Of a DNA stretch of 64,000 nucleotides, positions 5,254 to 10,810 are shown one piece after another. Each line of letters opens with the position of its first letter. Positions within the stretch are counted from its first letter, which is position 1. A program made the translations under genes and the position numbers. Origin of the DNA: a virus; the IMG/VR virus record IMGVR_UViG_3300028197_001778, positions 1 through 64,000 of that record; one strand, given 5' to 3'. The notes under the pieces were generated by a model that was not told where the DNA came from, searched no databases, and saw only the letters and a program-made list of their open reading frames with translations.

Positions 5254-5861
5254 AAGATATAGATGTTTTAATTACTGGTTCTGGTGGTAGTGGTCAAAGC
5301 TATTTCATGAAACAACTAGGTAAAAATTTTACCACTAACTGCACAACAGATAATGACAGTCTTAAACACATGAGTAGTCCCAAACATCCTAAACTTTCTA
5401 ATTATAATGTGAAGAAATGTATTTTTTTATACAATAAATCTTTTGAATGTATTTGTTCTTTTTATAGAAGAAATCCTTCTTGGCCTTGGTTTCAAGTTGT
5501 AAAATTAGGGAATTCTGGTAAATTAAGAGCAGGCAACCTTTCTACTCCAGATAGTTTTTTCTCTCTAGTAGAAGAAAGAAATGCTGATTTGTTTTCTATA
5601 GAATATCAATTTGAAAATTGGACAAATGCGAAAACTGATTTTCCTGTTTACTATGTAGATTTTAATAATATAAACATTGATAATCTTGCTTCTTTTTTAA
5701 ATTGTGATAAAAAAATTCTCAGTTTCGATGTAAAGAAAAGAAGAGAATATCCAGAACTAAGGGAGAAATATCCTTTAGCATATTCTCTCTACCAAAATTT
5801 AGACTTAAAAAAACAATCCTTAGCTGAAGAAGCAAATAGTAGGCAAGGTATCGCAACATGA
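5250..5861 (+). CDS. P-loop protein, sulfotransferase-like
   Basis: 203 aa. The N-terminus V-L-I-T-G-S-G-G-S-G-Q-S-Y-F resembles the 5'-phosphosulfate loop of sulfotransferases rather than a classical Walker A (no GKT/S). Around residues 59-75, C-I-F-L-Y-N-K-S-F-E-C-I-C-S-F-Y-R resembles the 3'-phosphate-binding segment, where a strand is followed by a helix containing Ser. If correct, it would transfer sulfate from PAPS to a glycan or small molecule. It starts by ATGA overlap with the nuclease and ends by ATGA overlap with the methyltransferase. Its presence in a replication operon is odd. A diverged nucleotide kinase is the alternative. Confidence 0.5.
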   Translation: MKDIDVLITGSGGSGQSYFMKQLGKNFTTNCTTDNDSLKHMSSPKHPKLSNYNVKKCIFLYNKSFECICSFYRRNPSWPWFQVVKLGNSGKLRAGNLSTPDSFFSLVEERNADLFSIEYQFENWTNAKTDFPVYYVDFNNINIDNLASFLNCDKKILSFDVKKRREYPELREKYPLAYSLYQNLDLKKQSLAEEANSRQGIAT

Positions 5862-6457
5862 CATATTCACATTTTTGGACTAGTGTTCCGGGTTGGTTCA
5901 ATCATGTTCGAACTTTTAATTTAATTTTGGATATGATACCTAATAATTTTGTTTTTGCAGAAATAGGAACATTTATGGGAAGAGGTTTGAGTTACTTCAC
6001 TGTTGAATCTTTACTAAGGATGAAGAGTGGTGAAATCTATGCGATAGACACATTTCAAGGTTCTGAAGAACATCTTAATAAAAACAGCCCCCATTTCATT
6101 CCTGCTTTAAAAGAAGATGTAAATTTTTTACTTAAAGAATATAAAAAACACACATCAGATATACGGGAGTATATAACTACAATACAAAATGAATCCACTG
6201 TTGCAGCTAAGTCTTTTAGAGATGAATATTTTGATGCCATTTATTTAGATGGTGCTCATGATTATAAAAGTGTTCTCGAAGATCTTGAATCTTGGTATCC
6301 CAAATTAAAACAGGACAAAATTTTACTATTCGGAGATGATTGGGGTTGGGATACTGTTCGACAAGCAGTTGAAGACTTCGTAAAAGATAAAGATCAATTG
6401 AAAATTTTTATAACAGAACCTAATGAATATCTAATTACAAACTTAGAGTTGAACTAA
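5858..6457 (+). CDS. Class I SAM-dependent methyltransferase (TylF/Methyltransf_24-like)
   Basis: 199 aa. Motif I is F-A-E-I-G-T-F-M-G-R-G (about 33-43), followed by I-Y-A-I-D-T-F-Q-G (acidic ribose-binding position) and by Y-L-D-G-A-H-D-Y (about 127-134), a signature of the small-molecule/sugar O-methyltransferase group with TylF-like members. D-D-W-G-W-D lies near 166 and may contribute to metal or substrate binding. It would methylate a sugar, lipid or small metabolite; nothing suggests DNA methylation (no N-P-P-Y or P-C motif). It overlaps the sulfotransferase-like gene (ATGA) and the polymerase gene (TAATG). Confidence 0.72.
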   Translation: MTYSHFWTSVPGWFNHVRTFNLILDMIPNNFVFAEIGTFMGRGLSYFTVESLLRMKSGEIYAIDTFQGSEEHLNKNSPHFIPALKEDVNFLLKEYKKHTSDIREYITTIQNESTVAAKSFRDEYFDAIYLDGAHDYKSVLEDLESWYPKLKQDKILLFGDDWGWDTVRQAVEDFVKDKDQLKIFITEPNEYLITNLELN

Positions 6458-8325
6458 TGAAAAAATATATACCTTTACATGTACATAGTCACTATTCTCT
6501 ATTGGATGGACTAAGCAGGCCAAAACAAATTGCACAAAGATGTGTCGATATCGGTGTTAAAAGCTGTGCTATTACAGATCATGGAAATATAGCTGGAGCA
6601 GCTCAAGTTCATGCAGCATTAAAATCTAAAGGTATTAAGCCTATCTTGGGCTGTGAATTATATATCTGTGATCAACACGCATCAATGAAAGATAAGAGTA
6701 ATGGTAAGCTTAGTCATTTTATAGTTTTGGCTAAAAACTTACAGGGTTGGAATACATTAGTAAAAATAATTTCTGAATCTAATAAGCCAGAACATTTTTA
6801 TAGAAAACCAAGATTAAGCATAGATCAGCTTGCGGAAATTGTTGATGAAAATATCATAGGGTTCTGTGGACATTTAGGTTCGTACTTAGCTAATAAAATC
6901 TTATCTAATGATGAAATTGTTGACAATTGGAAATCCATAGCTACTACTGAAGTTAAGAAACTGAAAAAAATATTTGGAGATAATTTTTTTCTTGAAACTC
7001 AACTCATGGACAAAGAGCTTAATCCTGCTCAAATCTCTTTAGCAGAATGCATTCGAGAGCTTTCTAAGGATTTAGGAGTTCGAGCAATCTGCACTCCTGA
7101 CGCTCACTATGCAAATCAAAAAGACGCTATAGATCAAAGAATACTTTTGTGTAATAATTTAAAAACTACACTTCCAGAGATTAATAGAAAATTATCTAAT
7201 GAAGAAGATGTTCCAATGTCTACATTTTTTATTAGCGATAAATATTATATACTATCTCCAGAAGAAATGCAGGAGCTTCACACCGAGGAAGAAATAGAAA
7301 ACACTAACTATGTCGATAGTCTTTGTGAAAGCTATGACATTAATCATGAACCTAGATTACCTCCATTTCAAACGGAAACATCTCCGGATGAATATTTAAG
7401 ACAACTATGTAGAGAGGGCTGGAAAAGAAAAATAGGTACTAAAGTAGAAAAATCGTTACACGAAAAGTACGCGGATAGAATCAAGTATGAGCTATCTATT
7501 TTACAATCTGCTGGTCTTTCTAGCTATTTTTTAATAGTGTCCGATATAGTCAAATATGTGAAGTCTCAGGGGTGGTTAGCAGGTCCTGGTCGTGGTAGTG
7601 CTGCAGGATGTCTGGTCTCATATCTCATAGACATAACATCTATTGATCCAATTAAACATGATCTAATATTTGAGCGTTTTTATAATGCTGGTAGAAATAC
7701 AAAAGGTAGAGTTTCTATGCCTGATATAGATATGGATGTTCCGATTAATCAGAGAGAGCAGGTTATAGAATATATAAAAGATAAGTATGGTTCTGACAAT
7801 GTTTCTCAAATGATTACATTTAATACTTTAAAGGGTAGAGGAGCATTAAAGGATGTGTTAAGAGTATATGGAGATGTGACTTTTGATGAGATGAATCAAA
7901 TAACAAAAAATATTCCTGATGAAGCAAAAATAGCAGATGAATTAGAACAAATGAAAGATGAGTATGGAGATGCTTCTATTATACGTTGGGCATTAGAAAA
8001 CAGAGTTGACAACCTGAAGAATTGGTGTTATATTGATAAGGAGGGAAACCTCTCAGGTCCGTTCGCTAAAAGATTTGAACAGGCCATGCGTTTAGAAGGA
8101 ACAAAGGTTAATCAATCTAAACATGCTGCTGGTGTTGTCATTACAGATAAAAAATTAGAGACTATTTGTCCAATGATTTTTGACACAAAAACAAAGCAAC
8201 CAATTGCTGGTATGGAGATGAATGACTTAGAATATTTGGGTATTATTAAATTTGACGTTCTAGGTATAGCTATGTTAGACAAGGTAATGAATATTAGTAA
8301 TACTTTAAGATATGGAGAACTATAA
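6457..8325 (+). CDS. dnaE-N: DNA polymerase III alpha subunit, N-terminal half (PHP and palm)
   Basis: 622 aa, equal to about the first half of bacterial DnaE. The PHP domain has H8-V-H10-S-H12, T-D-H (40-42), C-E-L (66-68) and P-D-A-H (214-217), so most metal ligands look present. The palm has G-P-G-R-G-S (377-382), P-D-I-D-M-D (Asp423, Asp425) and I-K-F-D-V-L-G (Asp600), matching the E. coli catalytic Asp401, 403 and 555. The protein stops 22 residues after Asp600, just before the fingers; those are in the gene at 9191-10810. All catalytic acids are thus in this half, and a functional enzyme must assemble from two chains. No intein motif is present at the end. Confidence 0.93.
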   Translation: MKKYIPLHVHSHYSLLDGLSRPKQIAQRCVDIGVKSCAITDHGNIAGAAQVHAALKSKGIKPILGCELYICDQHASMKDKSNGKLSHFIVLAKNLQGWNTLVKIISESNKPEHFYRKPRLSIDQLAEIVDENIIGFCGHLGSYLANKILSNDEIVDNWKSIATTEVKKLKKIFGDNFFLETQLMDKELNPAQISLAECIRELSKDLGVRAICTPDAHYANQKDAIDQRILLCNNLKTTLPEINRKLSNEEDVPMSTFFISDKYYILSPEEMQELHTEEEIENTNYVDSLCESYDINHEPRLPPFQTETSPDEYLRQLCREGWKRKIGTKVEKSLHEKYADRIKYELSILQSAGLSSYFLIVSDIVKYVKSQGWLAGPGRGSAAGCLVSYLIDITSIDPIKHDLIFERFYNAGRNTKGRVSMPDIDMDVPINQREQVIEYIKDKYGSDNVSQMITFNTLKGRGALKDVLRVYGDVTFDEMNQITKNIPDEAKIADELEQMKDEYGDASIIRWALENRVDNLKNWCYIDKEGNLSGPFAKRFEQAMRLEGTKVNQSKHAAGVVITDKKLETICPMIFDTKTKQPIAGMEMNDLEYLGIIKFDVLGIAMLDKVMNISNTLRYGEL

Positions 8326-8326
8326 A

Positions 8327-8512
8327 ATGAGTAATTTATTTTCTGATTTAAAAGAAGGTGATAAATTTCAAATTCCTGGTAAAGAAATAGTATATGAAAA
8401 AACAAAAGCTGTTAAAATCAGTTGTTGTAAATCACAGAATGCTAGACAATTGAATGATACTACTAAAAAAACTTTTTTTCAACCAGGAACGATTGTAGAG
8501 AAAAATGGCTAA
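8327..8512 (+). CDS. Small conserved-type phage protein between the polymerase halves
   Basis: 61 aa from the ATG at 8327, one base after the polymerase stop; an in-frame ATG at 8312 would overlap it. The sequence has the pattern F-S-D-L-K-E-G-D-K-F near the start, a central K-x-K-A-V-K segment, and F-F-Q-P-G-T-I-V-E near the end. This resembles small beta-rich phage proteins of unknown function. It overlaps the exonuclease gene by 8 nt. Its place between the two polymerase halves hints at an accessory role there, which is inference only. Confidence 0.6.
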   Translation: MSNLFSDLKEGDKFQIPGKEIVYEKTKAVKISCCKSQNARQLNDTTKKTFFQPGTIVEKNG

Positions 8513-9194
8513 TAAACAAAAAATTTGTGTTTTTGACTTAGAAACAGATGGCGTTGATCCTGAAAAATGTGATCCTGTACAAATTGCTGCTCTTATGATT
8601 GATCCTGTAAGTTTGGAAATCATACCAGATTCCGAATTTAATATTAATTGTAAGCCAGCTAAATTAGAAAAAGATAAAGACTATTGCTACGAAGATAGTG
8701 ATGTTTTAGAATTCCATGCAAAAGTAACTGGAAGTTCTAAAGAAAAAGTCTTAGCAAGCTGGAGAGACTATCCCAAACAGTCTGCAAGTTGGAAAATGTT
8801 TATAAGTTATCTAGATAAGTATCATACTAGATCTTCTAGAAAAAATCAATTTTCAGCACCTATTGCGGCAGGATACAATATCAATAGGTTTGATTTAAGG
8901 ATTTTGCAAAGACTTAGCACAAAATATAAAAATGTTAATAAAGAAGGTAATATGAATATTTTTTATCCCAGAGATGTGGTAGATATTATGAATATCCTTT
9001 TTTATTGGTTTGAGTCAAATAATGAATTAGAGAAATACACATTAGATCATTTTAGAGACTATGTGGGTATCTCCAAAGAAGGTGCTCATGATGCACTAAA
9101 AGATGTTCAAGACTCTGCTCAAATTTTGATTAGATTTTTAAAATTACATAGGTCACTCTCTGAGAAAATTAAATTTAGAAATTCATTTACATGA
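8505..9194 (+). CDS. DEDDh 3'-5' exonuclease (DnaQ-like, proofreading candidate)
   Basis: 229 aa. Exo I motif F-D-L-E-T-D-G (Asp11, Glu13), Exo II A-A-G-Y-N-I-N-R-F-D (Asp130) and Exo III H-D-A-L-K-D (His195, Asp200) give the full DEDDh set. This is the fold of the DnaQ epsilon subunit and of the PolC exonuclease domain. The gene sits between the two halves of the alpha subunit and overlaps both neighbours by a few bases, so it is very probably the proofreader of that polymerase. A general phage RNase T/ExoX-like role is less likely given the position. Confidence 0.87.
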   Translation: MANKQKICVFDLETDGVDPEKCDPVQIAALMIDPVSLEIIPDSEFNINCKPAKLEKDKDYCYEDSDVLEFHAKVTGSSKEKVLASWRDYPKQSASWKMFISYLDKYHTRSSRKNQFSAPIAAGYNINRFDLRILQRLSTKYKNVNKEGNMNIFYPRDVVDIMNILFYWFESNNELEKYTLDHFRDYVGISKEGAHDALKDVQDSAQILIRFLKLHRSLSEKIKFRNSFT

Positions 9195-10810
9195 AATATT
9201 ATACCTTTGATTGCGGTTGTAAATTCAAGCTTTTGGACGATAATGAAGACAAAGAAATCCCATCTATTGATTTTTCATTATCTTTAGAAGACCTTAATTT
9301 AGACTGTAAAAAAACTTGGGATCTTATATCTTCTGGAAACACTAAAGGCTGTTTCCAGCTAGAGTCTCGTTTGGGCAGATCAATGGCTAAAAAGTTAAGA
9401 CCTGAAAATATAGAACAGCTTTCTGCATTAATTAGCATTATGCGTCCTGGTTGTTTAGAAGCAATGAGAGACAATAAAAGTGTTAGTAATCATTTTATAG
9501 ACAAGAAGAATGGACAAGAGAGTATTGATTATTTTGATCCATGCTTAGAGTCTGTACTCAAGCCTACATACGGAGAAATGATTTATCAAGAACAAGCAAT
9601 GGAAATTGCAAGAATCATTGCTGGTTTTGACCTCCAAGAGGCAGATGTTTTGAGAAAAGCCATCGGAAAGAAAAAAGTTGACTTGATGGCAGAAGTGAAG
9701 AAATCTTTTTTAAAAGGTGCTAAAAAAACTGCTGTCACTTCTATAGAACACGCAACAGATATTTTCGGATGGATCGAAAAAAGTCAAAGATACAGCTTTA
9801 ATAAAAGTCATGCTATCTCTTACGCATATAACGCCTATCTTTCTGCTTATAGCAAAGCACATTTTCCTAAGATATTTTTTGCTTCTTATCTAAAATATGC
9901 TAAAGATAAAATAGATCCACAACAAGAAGTTAGAGAACTAGTACAAAATGCCACAGAAATGAATATTAAAATCACAGTTCCTGATTTGTTACTTATGAAT
10001 CAAAATTTTTGTATATCCAATGAGAAAATATACTTTGGTTTAACAGACATTAAAAATGTGGGATTATCTGTTTATAAGAAACTTGTAAAACTAAACGAAG
10101 ATTATCCTATTAAAAATCTGTGTTGGACGCAATGTCTTTTTATGATATTAGATAATATAACTTCGACTGCGGCAAAGGCTTTAATTTCTTGTGGAGCATT
10201 AGATATTTATAATAAGTCTAGGACATATATGCTTTTTGAGTATGAGATGATATCAGAATTAACAAAAAAAGAAAAAGAGTATATATGCGGAATTGATTTA
10301 GAAGATTTTGATTTGCTGGGTATCTTAAATATTCTTTTAAAAAAACCTAGATTAAATGTAAATCGTAAAGCGATTATTAATAATTTAATCAGCTCTATAG
10401 AAAATCCTCCCTATTCTTTGGATGATAAAATAGAGTGGATGTGTGATACGGAAAGTGATCTATTAGGTATTAATCTGACGTATTGCAAATTAGATTCATA
10501 TAATATTAGTAATGTCAATACACAATGTAGAGATCTAAAGGGATTGCAGCCGGGTGCAAAAGTTATGATGGCTGCTGAAATAGAAAGTTTTAACATTGTT
10601 AAAATTAAGAAAGGTCCCAATAAAGGAAATGATATGTGTTTTGTAACAGCTACAGACAGTACTGGCTGTTGTGATTCGGTTATCTTTTTTACTGAGCAAT
10701 TAACTCTTTACAGAAATGAGCTTTTGGAAGGAAATATTGTAATTATACAAGGAAAAACCTCTAAAAATGGAGGTTTGGTTGTGGATAAAATTTATAAACC
10801 TAGAGGTTGA
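9191..10810 (+). CDS. dnaE-C: DNA polymerase III alpha subunit, C-terminal half (fingers to OB fold)
   Basis: 539 aa. After a 26-residue leader (Y-T-F-D-C-G-C-K-F) it resumes DnaE sequence: T-W-D-L-I-S-S-G-N-T-K-G-C-F-Q-L-E-S (42-59), I-M-R-P-G (83-87), I-Y-Q-E-Q-A-M-E-I-A (131-140), Y-S-F-N-K-S-H-A (201-208), then a helical region and a C-terminal OB fold (about 449-535). It lacks the palm, which is in the gene at 6457-8325; together the halves total 1161 aa, the size of an intact E. coli-type DnaE. The start overlaps the exonuclease stop (ATGA). A clear beta-clamp-binding peptide was not identified. Confidence 0.92.
   Translation: MKYYTFDCGCKFKLLDDNEDKEIPSIDFSLSLEDLNLDCKKTWDLISSGNTKGCFQLESRLGRSMAKKLRPENIEQLSALISIMRPGCLEAMRDNKSVSNHFIDKKNGQESIDYFDPCLESVLKPTYGEMIYQEQAMEIARIIAGFDLQEADVLRKAIGKKKVDLMAEVKKSFLKGAKKTAVTSIEHATDIFGWIEKSQRYSFNKSHAISYAYNAYLSAYSKAHFPKIFFASYLKYAKDKIDPQQEVRELVQNATEMNIKITVPDLLLMNQNFCISNEKIYFGLTDIKNVGLSVYKKLVKLNEDYPIKNLCWTQCLFMILDNITSTAAKALISCGALDIYNKSRTYMLFEYEMISELTKKEKEYICGIDLEDFDLLGILNILLKKPRLNVNRKAIINNLISSIENPPYSLDDKIEWMCDTESDLLGINLTYCKLDSYNISNVNTQCRDLKGLQPGAKVMMAAEIESFNIVKIKKGPNKGNDMCFVTATDSTGCCDSVIFFTEQLTLYRNELLEGNIVIIQGKTSKNGGLVVDKIYKPRG

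Follow-up and report, generated by a model that had tools for sequence, protein, structure and literature searches.

An intein-free split of the DNA polymerase III alpha subunit conserved across a clade of uncultured phages

In cyanobacteria, DnaE is split at FNKSH within the fingers; each half carries intein sequence, and trans-splicing restores a single chain. Phage enzymes encoded in pieces have also been described without inteins. In Aeromonas phages 25 and 44RR, a family B polymerase is encoded by two adjacent genes, gp43A and gp43B; the gap in phage 25 holds an endonuclease gene, and the two halves co-purify and are active (PMC2988022). NrdA of Aeromonas phage Aeh1 is essential; the homing endonuclease mobE interrupts it at a functional region, and its separate chains are active (PMC2988022). 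T4-like jumbo phages encode a minimal DNA polymerase III (Pol III) alpha as two proteins from distant genes, beside a family B replicase (PMC7824862), and Dassa et al. 2009, as cited in PMC6892783, reported fractured genes that combine split inteins with free-standing endonucleases. Here, we describe the Pol III alpha (DnaE) locus of IMG/VR record IMGVR_UViG_3300028197_001778, of which a stretch of 64,000 nucleotides was analyzed (referred to as the window; coordinates are window positions). In this locus, the polymerase is encoded as two open reading frames (ORFs), alpha-N and alpha-C, with a small gene and a DEDDh exonuclease gene between them.

All four ORFs were confirmed at the positions claimed in a first-pass annotation of the sequence (Table 1), and its reading of both halves was borne out. 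The first half, proposed to hold a PHP domain and the catalytic residues Asp423, Asp425, and Asp600, matches the Pfam families PHP (2.5e-34) and DNA_pol3_alpha (2.3e-76), and the three aspartates are invariant among 30 aligned relatives. The second half, proposed to run from the fingers to the OB fold, matches DNA_pol3_finger (8.3e-47), HHH_6, and, weakly, an OB fold, and its Met1 is invariant among 37 relatives. AlphaFold models of alpha-N and alpha-C (mean predicted local distance difference test scores of 79 and 83, respectively) were aligned to solved structures, with alpha-N residues 1-622 mapping to E. coli alpha 3-577 and alpha-C residues 21-538 mapping to 576-1074. The DnaE superfamily model TIGR00594 is likewise covered from 1 to 571 by alpha-N and from 578 to 1022 by alpha-C. 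By the modeled structures, the break is at E. coli residue ~576/577, directly after the last palm helix and between palm and fingers as originally proposed, with the core residues all retained. The F-N-K-S-H motif is uninterrupted within alpha-C, and intein models were negative, in agreement with a break away from the cyanobacterial site and with intein-free ends. Judged by sequence, the pair of halves has the domains of a C-family Pol III alpha, namely, PHP, a palm with three Asp, fingers, HhH, and OB, and departs from this family in consisting of two ORFs rather than one chain. The summed length of 1161 amino acids (aa) had been equated with one intact DnaE; the total is correct, but the equality is coincidental. 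The C-terminal domain that binds tau (E. coli ~1075-1160) is absent, with alpha-C ending at E. coli ~1074 of 1160 (at 1055 in the HMMER alignment), and both halves carry extra residues: alpha-N exceeds the corresponding part of E. coli alpha by ~45 residues, and alpha-C begins with ~20 additional residues that align to no DnaE structure and are modeled with strands at 3-5 and 11-14.

The genes between the halves are tightly packed. The alpha-N stop is 1 base from the small gene, the small gene overlaps the exonuclease gene, and the exonuclease stop overlaps the alpha-C start as ATGA, leaving ~1 noncoding base in total. The exonuclease matches RNase_T (4.6e-11 over residues 9-208) and the PHROG family of DNA polymerase exonuclease subunits (3.8e-19), and the motifs FDLETDG, RFDLRIL, and HDALKDV, read directly, place it in the DnaQ-like DEDDh family. 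Pfam and PHROG searches with the small gene gave no match; an alternative upstream ATG at 8312 would extend its product to 66 aa.

To place the split among relatives, a clade of uncultured phages was assembled by using first alpha-C and then a divergent relative as search queries, and a locus was considered informative when both sides of the junction were readable (189 loci, 115 distinct junctions). The first-pass annotation had suggested looking for the same split point in related phages, and it was found in 189/189 informative loci, with alpha-C identity down to ~43% and no single-ORF version among them. In every split relative with a recognized KFD, alpha-N ends 21 to 33 residues from the KFD start. 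The split clade is monophyletic in a tree of 51 sequences (support of 100), with a long stem and the highly divergent L270 as its basal member. DnaE is contiguous in cellular homologues and in nearly all other phages examined; for example, the unrelated phages L272, L273, and L275 (~30% identity) have an ordinary single ORF. A fourth unrelated contig, L274, was also scored as fused at the alpha-N/alpha-C junction, but its gene is interrupted elsewhere, before PDID. The gap between the halves ranges from ~600 to 4700 bases across relatives and holds differing cargo. The halves are separated by the exonuclease gene in nearly every locus read, including those of most close relatives, where the exonuclease is 64 to 72% identical, and homologues of the small gene occupy the same position in most close relatives, with an unrelated small ORF instead in L092/L093. 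The simplest reading of these sequences is a single fission in the ancestor of the clade.

Searches of 17 contigs of 65 to 205 kb, in which the positive controls worked, identified no family A polymerase, no family B polymerase, and no second DnaE palm beyond the split one. The split DnaE is the sole A-, B-, or C-family polymerase detected, which is a strong, although not absolute, indication that it is the phage replicase. Genes for a DnaB-type helicase, a primase, and a single-stranded DNA-binding protein (SSB) adjoin the polymerase locus (Pfam, PHROG). No clamp was found with PF00712, and therefore host replication factors are probably used by the phage. The ratio of nonsynonymous to synonymous substitutions (dN/dS) between the window and L001 is 0.045 for alpha-N and 0.050 for the exonuclease, with alpha-C synonymous sites saturated in this comparison; between L092 and L093, it is 0.045 for alpha-N and 0.062 for alpha-C. 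The split polymerase is under strong purifying selection. Together, the evidence argues, with a probability that we put at about 0.82, that a replicative C-family polymerase is encoded, and very probably functions, as two polypeptides; the cut would be ancient and the assembly noncovalent. The proposal of a two-chain polymerase without an intein, made in the first-pass annotation, thus agrees with the lack of a single-ORF version in the clade, the negative intein models, and the lack of another A-, B-, or C-family polymerase in the 17 contigs.

An ancestral contiguous dnaE would have been broken a single time, in the loop that follows the last palm helix; invasion by a homing-endonuclease gene is the most likely cause. 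The gap would thereafter have been occupied by the proofreading exonuclease and the small gene, and one tightly overlapping operon would translate all of them, with alpha-N and alpha-C meeting along the palm-fingers boundary without peptide ligation. We infer the assembly of the two chains, their polymerase activity, and the association of the exonuclease with the complex. By analogy, this pattern fits the genes-in-pieces model of phage 25/44RR gp43A/B and Aeh1 NrdA (PMC2988022). Three divergent lineages have endonuclease-like genes in the conserved gap: HNH-type genes by motif (read by eye) in L015 and L270, and a gene with a treble-clef zinc-finger domain (Pfam) and a Vsr-like tail (by eye) in L198/L199. 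Alternatively, the halves may assemble as proposed but the split may have arisen without an endonuclease, by nonsense or frameshift fission or by insertion of the exonuclease gene, with endonucleases arriving later. The window gap, like that of most clade members, has no endonuclease gene, the halves of the basal L270 are already separated by the exonuclease gene, and the gap of the cultured phage phiT1, discussed below, contains only a 49-aa gene. Against this stand the endonuclease-like genes of the three divergent lineages, basal L270 among them, and a LAGLIDADG gene at a second intein-free cut in the same polymerase, and we regard an endonuclease-free origin as possible but somewhat unlikely.

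That second cut was observed in L007:2134-5127, L026:2117-5110, L027-L033, and L089, where alpha-N is divided directly before PDIDxD with no recognizable intein. The LAGLIDADG gene lies in the gap (Pfam, 1.3e-07), and the downstream piece has gained an N terminus of ~92 residues that is conserved between L007 and L026 (50% identity and dN/dS of 0.35). From their sequences, the polymerase of these phages is apparently produced as three chains, although an unrecognized intron at this second cut is conceivable.

How the chains are held together is suggested by few features. The alpha-C extension has a CxC motif in 112/115 distinct junctions and CxC plus a further Cys in 111/115, a conserved pattern that suggests a metal site. 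The position of the exonuclease between the halves makes cotranslation likely; physical clamping of the junction by the exonuclease is speculation, as this position shows operon linkage rather than contact. A more far-reaching proposal is an obligate multichain replicase whose halves are physically held together by the exonuclease and by the alpha-C hairpin, where CxC may form a metal site, with three polymerase chains in one subgroup. If true, a single replicase gene would have become, through homing endonucleases, a genuinely multisubunit enzyme that has persisted through deep divergence, but we consider this unlikely on balance. The hairpin as an essential clamp is weakened by its absence from L237/L238, L248/L249, and L270, and the small protein as an obligate third partner is weakened by the unrelated ORF of L092/L093.

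Several points weigh against a two-polypeptide replicase that originated from endonuclease invasion. The contigs are possibly incomplete, so an additional polymerase could lie outside them; the only obvious assembly feature, the CxC hairpin, is missing from the loci just named; Pfam gives weak or no support for the HNH genes of the gap; and the endonucleases may have entered an already divided gene. An alternative reading is that phage replication depends on a different enzyme, such as that of the host, and that the split polymerase gene has decayed or is accessory. The window record is 64 kb and may be a fragment, with the remainder of the genome unseen, and the lack of a PF00712 clamp and the probable use of host factors could be read in the same way. 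This reading is highly improbable given the invariant catalytic residues and dN/dS of ~0.05, by which a pseudogene is rejected, the lack of a family A, B, or second C polymerase in the long contigs, and the adjoining helicase, primase, and SSB genes.

The halves could also be joined at the RNA or protein level, through an intron or split intein that went unnoticed, producing one chain as in cyanobacterial DnaE. No intein domain was found on either half in the window (Pfam and intein models, E of 0.01), and the same models were positive in relatives (TIGR01445 matches in L036 and L270), so an intein at the alpha-N/alpha-C break was rejected. In L036:2032-5108, alpha-N is interrupted after PGRG, and in L270:10018-12850, alpha-C is interrupted at FNK|SH, in each case by a split intein with a free-standing endonuclease-like ORF. 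These split inteins within the same polymerase lend the idea of joining some plausibility, but both loci retain the intein-free alpha-N/alpha-C cut beside them. An intron is unlikely because the window gap is fully coding with overlapping genes and has no room for one, and relatives differ widely in gap length and cargo. Rfam gave no match; since it also missed the likely intron of Bacillus phage Jayan, this negative RNA result is weak, and the argument against an intron rests on coding density instead. Jayan itself was rejected as a precedent for the split, as its break lies before PDIDTD with a 76-aa filler ORF and PS1 is contiguous, and its interruption looks like an intron rather than a fission. 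Overall, we give very little credence to a restored single chain. A local sequencing error is excluded because the locus occurs again in a separate IMG/VR contig, L081, with 100% identity over the stretch from alpha-N to alpha-C residue 200, and the 115 distinct junctions agree. The outcomes that the first-pass annotation had listed as fatal to its proposal, namely, a sequencing error, a restored single chain, or a pseudogene beside fused relatives, were all checked, and none was found.

A different element at the start of alpha-N may matter as much as the polymerase split. In 23 distinct members, the window not among them, TAA or TAG directly follows ...PLHVHS, and after a few extra bases, the normal sequence resumes in frame 0, +1, or +2, depending on the member. 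The stop region folds into two adjacent stem-loops: the start-codon region ATGGRCRTG pairs with CAYGTCCAT, and the stop is in the 5' arm of the other. In alignment A6, the proportion of cells that pair is 97.3% and falls to 28 to 49% when the stem partners are slid by 1 to 3 columns; three pairs have changes on both sides. Two-sided changes occur in 14 cells versus a shuffled mean of 5.6 (0/500 shuffles as high), although sequence relatedness inflates such tests. A Ser codon flanks the gap on both sides in most members (TCY, stop..., TCN). The T4 gene 60 bypass has a 5' stem-loop, a take-off stem-loop, a stop after the take-off codon, and a matched landing codon, and synthetic stop-hops are also known (PMC5009743). 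By resemblance to these, the stop element is a candidate for a putative translational bypass. The rival explanation is a leader peptide with reinitiation at a downstream start, and the L064, L090, and L034 types, with ACT or GCT at the landing place, are a poorer fit to bypass. A reassigned stop codon in L043/L064 was rejected, since the extra bases are at one spot and frames differ among members.

Other genes near the split were also recorded. A Methyltransf_24-like gene is directly upstream of alpha-N in the window (5858-6454), and a gene resembling it is inside the gap of the basal L270, directly before alpha-C (9356-9991). ThyX is directly upstream of alpha-C in two separate relatives (L068:3374-5838 and L177:3041-5000). 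L068 also encodes a prepilin-type protein resembling the DUF1559 kind, which is common in Planctomycetota, a possible hint to a host in that phylum. Some clade contigs were binned in metagenome-assembled genomes (MAGs), with L092 and L093 in a Lokiarchaeota MAG and L089-L091 in other MAGs (archaeal and bacterial bins together), most likely through phage contamination of the bins. On the minus strand of the window, positions 19628-63928 contain a long series of large genes, many with TPTxTPT-type repeats common to neighboring proteins, which are probably virion or fiber proteins.

Table 1. Positions of the split polymerase features in the window and of the stop element in relatives
Feature	Position	Strand	Basis
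Alpha-N, 622 aa	6457..8325	+	PHP, thumb, palm, all catalytic Asp; Pfam, VIA Z 28-34 versus DnaE structures
Catalytic Asp423 and Asp425 (PDIDMD)	7723..7731	+	Invariant alignment columns
Catalytic Asp600 (KFD)	8254..8256	+	Invariant column; 23 codons upstream of alpha-N stop
Small gene, 61 aa	8327..8512	+	ORF; conserved SCC motif
DEDDh (DnaQ-like) exonuclease, 229 aa	8505..9194	+	RNase_T, PHROG
Alpha-C, 539 aa	9191..10810	+	Fingers, HhH/beta-binding region, OB fold; VIA Z 14-19 versus DnaE structures
Alpha-C extra N terminus	9191..9250	+	Predicted hairpin, Cys8-Gly9-Cys10
Stop element	L007:2115-2186, L015:2518-2590, L021:3242-3314, L043:3212-3285, L050:3246-3318, L064:3256-3326, 17 more		Alignment A6

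The first-pass annotation knew of no well-described two-chain, intein-free DnaE cut at this site, a statement that has to be narrowed because the cultured Rossellomorea phage phiT1 in GenBank (PV767480; L278:3986-7268) has the same cut, and other split phage polymerases have been described (PMC2988022, PMC7824862). The phiT1 halves are gp20 (573 aa), whose end comes after KFDLLGL..., and gp18 (469 aa), which starts just before the first fingers motif, with a 49-aa gene between them. The phiT1 polymerase is ~33% identical and falls outside the split clade, in a weakly supported part of the 51-sequence tree, and the cultured relatives that match phiT1, GBK1 and 056SW001B, are contiguous. From these sequences, the phiT1 cut is probably an independent event. 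Because phiT1 shares the cut and lies outside the clade, the palm-fingers loop seems to be a tolerated, permissive cut, probably exploited by nature at least twice.

Few enzymes are as constrained as replicases, yet an entire phage clade has long kept its sole detected one cut beside the active site. The locus makes a natural two-chain DnaE available for assembly studies, with phiT1 as a cultured phage for experiments, and it allows stages of fragmentation to be compared in one gene: an endonuclease in the gap, a split intein, intein-free fission, and absence of the endonuclease. Our literature search, with subscription papers mostly outside its coverage, returned no paper on the split DnaE of this clade. 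To our knowledge, this is the first C-family replicase of the genes-in-pieces sort seen conserved across a clade.

Among known systems, the phiT1 pair has the same palm-fingers loop cut, a small gene between the halves, and no intein domain found, but it has no exonuclease between the halves and no CxC extension. The gp43A/gp43B pair is likewise a phage replicative polymerase in two intein-free genes and differs in belonging to family B, whose enzymes contain their own exonuclease domain, in being found in few phages rather than a deep clade, and in having no exonuclease gene in the gap. Aeh1 NrdA is a ribonucleotide reductase, and its endonuclease is still present, whereas none is in the window gap. 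As in these genes in pieces, homologues outside the lineage are contiguous, here the cellular DnaE and the other phage versions examined as fused genes. The jumbo phages also have a C-family alpha-like catalytic region as two phage proteins, but theirs is minimal, whereas here PHP, HhH, and OB are present in one operon and no family B polymerase was detected in 17 relatives. Fractured genes are likewise interrupted, with an endonuclease ORF between the pieces, an arrangement that L036 and L270 show at other polymerase sites, unlike the conserved alpha-N/alpha-C cut, which has no intein. Cyanobacterial DnaE is also encoded in two genes, but the phage halves carry neither an N- nor a C-intein, and their break is at E. 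coli 576/577, not at FNKSH. On sequence evidence, the comparison confirms an intein-free, two-chain DnaE fixed in a large clade of uncultured phages, its assembly and activity being inferred, and its kind is that already known from phage genes in pieces.

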